Assembly: GCA_022241785.1 (NCBI GenBank)
Contig: JAKOMP010000005.1
Span: 62,001 to 126,000, forward strand
Direction: 5' to 3'
DNA: 64,000 nt
Source: Cyanocohniella sp. LLY
GTDB taxonomy: Bacteria > Cyanobacteriota > Cyanobacteriia > Cyanobacteriales > Nostocaceae
The stretch's first letter is position 1; every line of letters begins with the position of its first letter. The notes beneath the pieces were generated by a model, which saw nothing but the letters and a program-made list of their open reading frames with translations, was not told the DNA's origin and made no database searches. Of this stretch, positions 4,312 to 26,375 are shown piece by piece. The translations under genes and the position numbers were made by a program.

Positions 4312-4421
4312 CTGCCATAAGCATTGGACATTTTCATTTCTGTCCCATGTCAGCGACCTCAACCCGGAAGGTACATCGAAATAGTTGAAGAAGTACCAGT
4401 AACTGATAACAAATTTTGCCA

Positions 4422-24654: not shown

Positions 24655-25007
24655 AATCAAACTATATTGCGCTTAAGAGTTAATCGGTTCAAGGCAAAAT
24701 AAGCTACAAATCATCTGATTTATCGAATTTTTCAGTATTCATCACTGATGATTCTGATTATTGTTTACCAACTACGCCTAAATACTATTTTTAGATTTGA
24801 GATTTTGCGTATCGCTAAGGCTGCGCTTACCACATAGTGTGCCGTAGGCATAAGCTCCGAAAATCGCGTAGCGTGTCGAAGACATAAAGTTGCGTGGGCG
24901 GGTTTTCCGACTTGAGCAAACTTTTCCAGACAGATTTTAAACTGGGAATCACCTTCTGAGTCCAGATTTGTCAAGAGTTTATCGTTTTTTTAGGGATTTT
25001 GCTGGTA
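24655..25007. other. Intergenic region with palindromic dispersed repeat
   Basis: Contains short palindromic repeats of the gcgtagcgtg/gccgtaggcat type around 24805-24905, as seen elsewhere in Nostocales genomes. Minus-strand frames here and at 25030-25224 look accidental. The aroF promoter follows. Confidence 0.4.
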
Positions 25008-25036
25008 TTGACGCTGGCGATACCTTCTGCTAATGT
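25008..25036 (+). promoter_or_regulatory. Probable sigma70-type promoter of the aroF leader
   Basis: TTGACG (25008-25013), a 17-bp spacer, then TAATGT (25031-25036). The expected start near 25043 would place the first leader ORF about 40 nt into the transcript. No other promoter of similar quality lies between here and aroF. Confidence 0.6.
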
Positions 25037-25083
25037 GGCTTTATTAGAAGTGTATATTCAATTATTAACTCAACACTACACAA

Positions 25084-25140
25084 ATGTTCAGCAACAAGCA
25101 TTACTTTTATTTTTGGCGCCAGGCGGTTCACGGGCAGTGA
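25084..25140 (+). CDS. Aromatic leader peptide 1 of the aroF attenuator
   Basis: An 18-codon ORF, MFSNKHYFYFWRQAVHGQ, with five consecutive aromatic codons Tyr-Phe-Tyr-Phe-Trp (25102-25116). An in-frame TAA at 25066 bounds it upstream. It has no strong Shine-Dalgarno, which is common in cyanobacteria. Its last codons contain the 5' arm of an antiterminator (25124-25135). By analogy with trp and phe leaders, a ribosome stalled at the aromatic codons would leave that arm free, while one reaching the TGA would cover it. Role inferred from sequence only. Confidence 0.7.
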   Translation: MFSNKHYFYFWRQAVHGQ

Positions 25141-25204
25141 ATTAAGTTTCCTCATGGAAGCCGCCCAGTGAACCGTAGAGAAGACTCTGCGGTTTTTGTT
25201 TTTT
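25124..25204 (+). promoter_or_regulatory. Attenuator 1: antiterminator and intrinsic terminator
   Basis: Antiterminator: 25124-25135 (CGGTTCACGGGC) pairs with 25163-25175 (GCCCAGTGAACCG), 12 bp with one bulged A. Terminator: 25173-25180 (CCGTAGAG) pairs with 25185-25192 (CTCTGCGG) around loop AAGA, extendable by two A-T pairs, followed by TTTTTGTTTTTT (25193-25204). The two structures share 25171-25175 and cannot coexist. Confidence 0.7.
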
Positions 25205-25222
25205 AAGGAGCAAAATTTCATC

Positions 25223-25288
25223 ATGACGAACTATTTCGGTAACTGGTTTTATAGCTTTTACTTTTGGCCCAGCGCAAATTCCGGGTAA
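25223..25288 (+). CDS. Aromatic leader peptide 2 of the aroF attenuator
   Basis: A 21-codon ORF with AAGGAG twelve bases upstream (25205-25210). Residues 4-15 read YFGNWFYSFYFW, so nine of twelve codons are Tyr, Phe or Trp, a composition not expected by chance. The TAA stop is at 25286-25288, and the codons just before it (25279-25285, TTCCGGG) are the 5' arm of a second antiterminator. The FYFW end and following DNA resemble leader 1, suggesting a duplicated module. Function by inference: sensing charged tRNA for Phe, Tyr and Trp. Confidence 0.8.
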   Translation: MTNYFGNWFYSFYFWPSANSG

Positions 25289-25347
25289 ATAGCGTCATGT
25301 TGATAAATTCACAACGCGCCCGGAACTTTGAAGTTTCGGGCTTTTTT
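25279..25347 (+). promoter_or_regulatory. Attenuator 2: antiterminator and intrinsic terminator
   Basis: Antiterminator: TTCCGGG (25279-25285) pairs perfectly with CCCGGAA (25319-25325). Terminator: 25318-25327 (GCCCGGAACT) pairs with 25332-25341 around a 4-nt loop (TTGA), ten pairs including one G-U, followed by six T (25342-25347). The terminator's 5' arm is the antiterminator's 3' arm, so they are mutually exclusive. Confidence 0.8.
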
Positions 25348-25351
25348 AATG

Positions 25352-25486
25352 GAGAAATGAGGGGAGAAGAAGCCGGGGAGCAGCACTTCGGCTACGCTCA
25401 GTGGACGGGAGCAGGGGAGAAGTTTCTTCCCCAATCCCCTTGTCCCCTTGTCCCCAATCCCCTTGTCCCCAATCCCCAGTACCCAA
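25352..25486. repeat. G-rich then C-rich low-complexity tract in the aroF 5' leader
   Basis: gggagaag-type G-rich sequence (25360-25422) followed by a (ccccttgt/ccccaatc)n tract (25430-25486). The two halves are partly complementary and could fold. It lies between the second terminator and the aroF ribosome binding site, so it should be in the mature mRNA leader. Confidence 0.5.
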
Positions 25487-25502
25487 TCAGGAGAATCAAA
25501 CC

Positions 25503-26375
25503 ATGATTAACGCCAAACTTGCTTCACAATCTCATTCTGAACACCAGACAATCGTTAAAATCTCAGAAACAGTTGCTTTCGGTGGTAATGAACTGGTGAT
25601 TATCGGTGGCCCTTGCACTGTGGAAAGTTTAGAACAAATGCAGATGGTTGCGGAAACTTTATCTGCTGCACCTGTACAAGCTTTACGCGGTGGTGTTTAT
25701 AAACCCCGGACTTCTCCTTACGCTTTCCAAGGTATGGGTGAAGCCGGATTGGATGTTTTGGCAAAGGTGCGATCGCAGTACAATATTCCTGTTGTCACCG
25801 AAGTGATGTCAATTTCCCAAATACCAGTAGTGGCGGCTCATGCTGATATGCTGCAAGTGGGTAGCCGCAATATGCAAAACTTCGATTTACTGAAGGCTTT
25901 GGGTGAAGCTGGTAAGCCTATTTTACTCAAGCGTGGTTTAGCCTCAACTATTGAAGAGTTCGTCATGGCAGCCGAATATATTTTAAGTCACGGCAATCCA
26001 GATGTGGTGATGTGCGAACGAGGTATCCGCAGCTTTGATAATTACACCCGCAACGTTTTAGATTTAGGGGCTGTGGCTGCACTCAAGCAAATCACTCACT
26101 TACCTGTGATTGTAGATCCTTCCCATGCTGTGGGCAAACGGGAACTTGTCGCACCTCTAGCGAAGGCGGCTGTGGCTTGTGGGGCTGATGGTTTAATTAT
26201 TGAGTGTCACCCTGAACCAGAAAAATCTGTTTCTGATGCACGTCAGGCACTTTCTTTAGAAGATATGCTGAGTTTGGTAGATAGTTTAAAGCCTGTAGCA
26301 GTTGCTGTAGGACGGAGTATAGCCATTAAAACTGGGGTGGATGTTAAATCTGCCCCTATTTTTTGTGCTGCTTAA
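25503..26375 (+). CDS. aroF: 3-deoxy-7-phosphoheptulonate (DAHP) synthase, KDO8P-synthase-like class I-beta
   Basis: 290 residues. Condenses phosphoenolpyruvate and erythrose 4-phosphate, the first step of the shikimate pathway. Motifs: [13 protein letters not shown] (metal Cys), [35 protein letters not shown] and [15 protein letters not shown], the Bacillus/Thermotoga-type AroF set without a chorismate mutase domain. The ATG at 25503 is chosen over an in-frame upstream TTG (25401) because AGGAGA precedes it and the preceding codons are low-complexity repeat. Expression is probably controlled by the tandem attenuators at 25084-25347, 155 nt upstream. Confidence 0.95.

Follow-up and report, generated by a model that had tools for sequence, protein, structure and literature searches.

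What controls the aroF-like gene of this locus, and at what level does the control act? The gene encodes a class Ib DAHP synthase, which opens the pathway to the aromatic amino acids, and is preceded by two short reading frames rich in aromatic codons. We consider it very probable that these belong to two ribosome-mediated transcription attenuators, arranged in series before aroF and responding to the supply of charged Phe, Tyr and Trp tRNAs, and that the enzyme is probably made only when these three amino acids are short. The features of the region are listed below, with positions counted in the window (the whole 64-kb stretch of DNA that was analysed).

25008..25036, + strand: promoter-like site, TTGACG followed by the extended -10-like TGCTAATGT, 76 nt before leader 1
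25084..25140, + strand: leader ORF 1, predicted translation MFSNKHYFYFWRQAVHGQ and stop
25124..25134, + strand: 5' arm of antiterminator 1, CGGTTCACGGG, within the leader codons and complementary to 25164-25175, with A25167 unpaired
25170..25195, + strand: terminator 1 hairpin, followed by TTGTTTTTT
25205..25210, + strand: Shine-Dalgarno-like AAGGAG of leader 2, 12 nt before its ATG and just past terminator 1
25223..25288, + strand: leader ORF 2, predicted translation MTNYFGNWFYSFYFWPSANSG and stop
25279..25285, + strand: 5' arm of antiterminator 2, TTCCGGG, complementary to 25319-25325 and adjoining the stop codon
25318..25341, + strand: terminator 2 hairpin of 10 pairs with a loop of 4, followed by TTTTTT
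25503..26375, + strand: aroF-like gene, class Ib DAHP synthase of 290 aa, catalytic barrel only (NCBIfam NF006421 and TIGR01361)

The original prediction concerned the second unit. Its most striking element, nine aromatic codons among the twelve at residues 4-15, is present in the translation of ORF 25223-25288, and the coordinates bear out the exact complementarity between TTCCGGG and CCCGGAA, the 5' arm of terminator 2 (25319-25325). On the other hand, the stop codon was wrongly placed three bases from the antiterminator arm; TAA at 25286-25288 directly abuts it. The ribosome site that had been called good does carry the AAGGAG motif, but its spacing to the ATG is long. The geometry, described as textbook, is so with regard to the two exclusive structures, but not in other respects: no clear pause hairpin (pairing of segments 1 and 2) was found in either attenuator, the stop lies against the arm, and codons 12-15 are modelled as termination. 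Attenuator 1, just upstream, has the same design, with a leader consensus near M..SNSYFYFWFRVVHRE in named relatives. Because the leader-2 ribosome site directly follows the T-run of terminator 1, the second switch would exist only on transcripts that have passed the first.

Comparison with relatives, which had been proposed as a check, was carried out on an orthologue set of 223 loci, consisting of the best 80 named loci and loci from further genomes; 220 of them had at least 250 bases upstream. These best 80 of at least 541 named relatives of the aroF protein were 79-88% identical to it and came mostly from Nostoc and other Nostocales. Any match at 1e-70, paralogues included, occurred in 247 of 292 further genomes of the phylum, and an aroF orthologue at 1e-112 in 140 of 388 genomes of the class. 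By reading and two rules, both attenuators were identified in 213 of the 220 upstream regions, a count of loci that are not independent, as some probably represent the same species twice (for example, the leaders of L055 and L091 are identical). This number comprises 209 loci recognised by rule (199 with two attenuators and 10 with three, the latter read by eye) and four recognised by reading (L074, L097, L147 and L190). Two different leaders were confirmed in all 199, and reading by eye covered 13 loci with unusual terminator strings. The leader-2 frame of L097 reaches its terminator without meeting a stop codon. Six of the remaining regions had one attenuator, either attenuator 1 (L105, L224, L225 and L226) or attenuator 2 (L109 and L222), and the last, L171, is cut off by a contig end inside attenuator 1. 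A single family (f46) accounts for L224-L226, and two further loci of this family, L264 and L265, likewise showed attenuator 1 only on reading; with five such loci, the f46 lineage thus seems to lack attenuator 2. In L266, a run of repeated CCCATCTAGTTCACCCAG-like units lies between the two attenuators.

We then asked how often such an arrangement would be met by chance. When all six frames are considered, the real 64 kb contains one stop-free window with 9 of 12 aromatic codons. Of 100 dinucleotide-shuffled versions of the sequence, 1 had such a window and 19 had one with 8 of 12; the aromatic density alone is therefore only moderately significant. Two other stop-free windows with 8 of 12 aromatic codons are found in the 64-kb window, at 4378 and 48902 (minus strand). 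The combined automatic rule, that is, an aromatic ORF, a terminator and a complementary arm, picked out one or more attenuators in 218 of the 220 regions upstream of aroF; in the controls it did so in 35 of 440 shuffled sequences and in 3 of 220 taken from the opposite strand. At least two were detected in 196 of the 220 regions, against none of 440 dinucleotide shuffles and none of 220 opposite strands. Chance does not account for the combined anatomy, and the attenuator that had been noticed in this genome is real.

If the antiterminator and the terminator are exclusive alternatives, both should leave traces in the alignments. Reference sets of 77 and 92 mutually dissimilar loci were used, with L223 left out of the first and L158 and L168 of the second. 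The alignment for attenuator 1 (A3, 72 rows) was obtained from A1 (76 rows) by removing four misassigned rows, and that for attenuator 2 (A4, 82 rows) from A2 (90 rows) by removing eight, including the misassigned L059; the other seven (L153, L178, L183, L199, L200, L207 and L211) had arms outside the common columns. In A3, 89.6% of the cells of antiterminator 1 and 99.7% of those of terminator 1 were paired, with 72 and 14 double-change cells, respectively (shuffle means 23.8 and 1.8). In A4, where removal of the seven off-column rows could raise pairing, the corresponding values were 91.2% with 39 double-change cells for antiterminator 2 and 93.2% with 55 for terminator 2 (shuffle means 14.8 and 16.3). 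For each of the four structures, none of 500 shuffles, which ignore kinship, reached the observed double-change cells, paired percentage or covariation score, and in slid controls pairing dropped to 14-62%. Two other measures were matched by the shuffles: the count of antiterminator-2 pairs changed on both sides was reached by 258 of 500, and that of further pair types by 247 of 500 for terminator 2 and 124 of 500 for terminator 1. At columns 56, 110 and 127 of A4, the shared base changes along with both of its partners (TAT in 34 of the 82 rows, CGC in 12, and CGT, with a G-U pair, in 12), and such a three-way change is the pattern predicted by an exclusive switch. Covariation of both structures thus marks antiterminator and terminator as mutually exclusive in both attenuators, each of which has a predicted intrinsic terminator past its leader ORF and ahead of the gene.

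Downstream of the leader-2 stop (25289-25310, and in the same place in A4) lies a GTCATG-like element, which was found by a loose pattern in 97 of 190 loci; it is complementary to the CATGAC-like start region of leader 2. The mean longest helix between the start and post-stop regions was 6.64 for leader 2 versus 6.11 (sd 0.07) over 30 partner swaps, and 5.91 versus 5.79 (sd 0.07) for leader 1, kinship being ignored in both cases. This helix is not relied on here, the signal being weak for leader 2 and not clear of the control for leader 1.

The leader peptides themselves were examined in the automatic calls, which gave 203 leader-1 and 200 leader-2 peptides in the 220 loci (one ORF of L136 is in both sets). 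F, Y and W were all present in 199 of 203 leader-1 and 192 of 200 leader-2 peptides, and both leaders of this genome have a run of codons for products of the pathway. The stop came seven codons past the final aromatic one in 133 of 203 leader-1 and 165 of 200 leader-2 peptides; the few distances of one or two codons are probably misassignments. Rates of change were measured with nucleotide anchors only, which placed 74 and 73 of 78 named loci (63 and 64 distinct) for leaders 1 and 2; the sequence pairs compared are not independent. In leader 1, pN was 0.040 and pS 0.288 in the aromatic block, 0.34 and 0.49 in the five codons before it, and 0.086 and 0.009 in the final four codons, where the arm lies. 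In leader 2, the aromatic block WFYGFYFW had a pN of 0.049 and a pS of 0.353 and the preceding codons 0.23 and 0.454, whereas the last two codons were nearly invariant (0.008 and 0). The pN/pS ratio was thus ∼0.14 in the aromatic block of both leaders, compared with 0.69 and 0.51 in the preceding codons. It follows that amino acids are kept where stalling is expected and nucleotides where pairing is expected: protein-level constraint is seen on the aromatic codons and not on those of the arm. Of the original claims, predicted stalling-dependent antitermination is the reading best supported by these comparisons, namely covariation, protein-level constraint and the spacing between the last aromatic codon and the stop.

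Conserved leader peptides could also act as peptides. TnaC-like sensing is the model for nascent-peptide arrest, in which the conserved peptides would stall the ribosome together with free aromatic amino acids, and the sign of the response would be reversed or different. The leader-2 core WFYGFYFWPR.SSG is indeed highly conserved among the named, mostly Nostocales loci. However, aromatic residues and lengths vary across families (for example, WFFSFFW, SWQFTFFFFT and NWYYGFFYTTG), unlike a fixed arrest motif, and the antiterminator arm accounts for the conserved residues at the C-terminus, with no protein-level constraint there in leader 1. We regard arrest as improbable. Control of translation, with the leaders acting mainly as uORFs or through reinitiation on aroF and the terminators being secondary, appears slightly less probable still. 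Short upstream ORFs can in general control translation of a downstream gene, but a median of 60 nt separates the end of terminator 2 from aroF, which mostly has its own Shine-Dalgarno-like site (155 of 203 loci), and both intrinsic terminators and their exclusive antiterminators show conservation and covariation. Least probable of all is a translation-independent RNA switch (riboswitch or T-box) to which the ORFs would be incidental, which the strong conservation of RNA structure would fit but which is opposed by the protein-level constraint on the aromatic block, by the codon-register spacing to the stop and by the lack of an Rfam match at the gathering score in the leader. At that score only a tRNA was found in the 64-kb window, the leader itself matching no family, and a search of 25000-25520 with E up to 10 gave weak matches only (trpB motif, 18.9 bits versus 59 needed). 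A T-box or another Rfam leader family, having no match at the gathering score, was rejected.

Ribosome-mediated attenuation, the reading we prefer, requires a promoter before leader 1 and translation of both leaders. In 194 of 203 loci, TTGAC was present in the 130 nt preceding leader 1, compared with 21 of 203 after letter shuffling, and when the loci were aligned on it a TGnTAnnnT pattern recurred (72-90% per position). The conserved promoter-like site lies 76 nt upstream of leader 1 in this genome and at a median of 73. A sigma-70 consensus scan of 24700-25520 did not list the site at 25008-25036 and gave one promoter-like match, on the minus strand. By a simple rule, no Shine-Dalgarno-like motif was detected before leader 1 in 191 of 203 loci or before leader 2 in 113 of 200. 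As leader 1 is mostly without such a motif, its initiation may be Shine-Dalgarno-independent. No match to Rho above the curated cut-off was found in this genome, which fits the use of intrinsic terminators.

On this basis, RNA polymerase would start at a single promoter upstream of leader 1, with a ribosome translating leader 1 behind it; coupling of ribosome and polymerase in cyanobacteria is assumed here. A shortage of charged tRNA for Phe, Tyr or Trp would stall the ribosome in the aromatic run, leaving the 3' end of the leader free to pair with the 5' side of terminator 1, and the polymerase would read on. With ample supply, the ribosome would reach the stop codon and cover the arm, allowing terminator 1 to form and presumably to end transcription. 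Transcripts that pass terminator 1 would then make the leader-2 ribosome site and meet the same decision at terminator 2, and aroF expression would be proportional to both escapes.

Folding models in which the footprint of the ribosome was masked give a rough picture, and they assume masking at the stop from the outset. In the equilibrium model of attenuator 2, stalls at codons 4-11 favoured the antiterminator (probability 0.91-0.97), and a ribosome at codon 12 to the stop favoured the terminator (0.97-0.99); codons 12-15, where termination is modelled, hold four of the nine aromatic codons of leader 2. With no ribosome, the antiterminator had a probability of 0.71 versus 0.28 for the terminator. 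In attenuator 1, the arm is imperfect in this strain, and in the equilibrium model the terminator led at every ribosome position tested (0.67 or more); before the 3' arm of the terminator has been made, the modelled antiterminator had a mean probability of 0.86 over the stalls. Across loci, the nascent-RNA model switched in the expected sense in 168 of 169 'att1' and 230 of 248 'att2' records, which is partly so by construction; these labels are loose, and the 'att2' set holds some attenuator-1 and spurious records. With full-length RNA, only 127 of the 248 loosely labelled 'att2' records reached an antiterminator probability above 0.5 at any stall.

Is the element particular to this gene? The attenuator-1 model matched in 86 of 242 genomes of the class, at one place in each and at a second, weak one (31 bits) in G289. 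Eighty of these 87 matches lay within 1 kb of one of 81 compared aroF places, a subset of the 140 chosen by eye. Among the other seven, three also precede aroF (L264, L265 and L266) and that of G378 ends at a contig end. Only one of the 81 places, in G322, was without a model match, and its leader 1 is divergent. The element is thus nearly private to aroF. In G030 (L263), a remnant of attenuator 1 stands before a broken aroF, and in G374 (L267) a remnant of 40 bits lies in decayed sequence with no aroF match; from these two cases, the attenuator 1 element seems to decay along with the gene. In the present genome, model R2 scored 95.8 bits at this locus and at most 23.9 elsewhere, and the two next-best R2 places (L270 and L271) had no aroF by tblastn. 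Model R1 matched one place in this genome with E up to 0.01, under the stricter filters as used above 40 genomes.

Further information came from the enzymes. In a Pfam search, the attenuated aroF product contained PF00793 and lacked PF18152, whereas both paralogues in the same genome (L002 and L003, on contigs C116 and C177) contained PF00793 together with this ferredoxin-like domain. No attenuator was found in the 750 bases searched for L002 and L003, which include ∼210 bases of the gene itself, or in the 750 bases searched for a distant relative, L112. The aroF protein aligns to 1rzm, which we take to be a regulated DAHP synthase, from residue 70 onward, and to 1zco, presumably an unregulated one, over most of its length. 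In the orthologues, the distance from the end of terminator 2 to aroF has a median of 60 nt (95th percentile 194), which is usually too short for a ferredoxin-like domain. An attenuated enzyme without this domain and a gap too short to encode it suggest that RNA control may stand in for allosteric control of this DAHP synthase. In this genome, short repeats of the CCCCTTGTCCCC/CCCCAATCCCC type fill part of the gap (25420-25490), and L046 has a GGGACTGGGGACT repeat there. A broader idea, that feedback control has moved from protein to RNA, two attenuators that multiply termination replacing the ferredoxin-like domain and the pair being retained with this aroF wherever it occurs across many families, is one to which we give somewhat less than even weight. 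If so, two attenuators, each responsive to Phe, Tyr and Trp alike, would form a deep and steep switch, and retention of the pair would imply that ribosome and polymerase are tightly coupled on short leaders in bacteria lacking Rho. In strains carrying this aroF, the pair would be a place at which aromatic flux is controlled, and its leaders could serve as a concrete reporter for transcription-translation coupling in cyanobacteria.

Among known systems, the trp and pheA attenuators of E. coli are the ribosome-mediated attenuators of amino acid operons that the aroF pair most obviously recalls: a leader ORF rich in product codons, an intrinsic terminator, an exclusive antiterminator and a gene of the same pathway. 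The aroF pair differs in that there are two in series, Phe, Tyr and Trp codons are mixed in each leader, the arm lies inside the last ORF codons, no clear 1:2 pause hairpin is seen, and the hosts are cyanobacteria. Furthermore, in the trp type the antiterminator is not known to be favoured without a ribosome, whereas the model of attenuator 2 favours it. A Tyr-tRNA attenuator of E. coli aroF was reportedly proposed by Camakaris in 1980, as cited in PMC2659441 and PMC8632094; it shares a DAHP synthase gene and an aromatic signal with the present pair, and on its description it is set apart by organism and enzyme. Ribosome-mediated attenuators of amino acid operons are described in PMC3641672 and PMC2659441, and attenuators in Actinobacteria and Shewanella in PMC1262725 and PMC2659441. 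Attenuators before tyrA were predicted from a database in PMC1173090, part of whose table contains no cyanobacterium, and a comparative paper of 2016 (PMC4833913) states that there were no reliable data on attenuation in cyanobacteria. No aromatic attenuation in cyanobacteria was found among the matches listed from the open PMC literature, while subscription papers and attenuator databases may hold predictions; the aroF pair would be a deeply conserved example of attenuation in this phylum. The uORFC-13-1 motif before aroF in Acholeplasma, known from 24 unique sequences, is a single putative uORF with, as reported in PMC8632094, at least one Phe codon. It shares with the present leaders a position before aroF, a terminator and a putative uORF containing Phe codon(s), and differs by description in being single, from another phylum and without mixed aromatic runs. 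Finally, the Salmonella mgtCBR leader (PMC3641672) has tandem attenuators that respond to ATP and proline, with hairpins unlike intrinsic terminators. The likeness lies in two leader ORFs and two attenuators in one leader, but the signals differ: both aroF leaders hold F, Y and W, and the pair appears to read the same three amino acids twice, at intrinsic terminators. It would thus be a case in which both attenuators of a tandem respond to one and the same set of signals.
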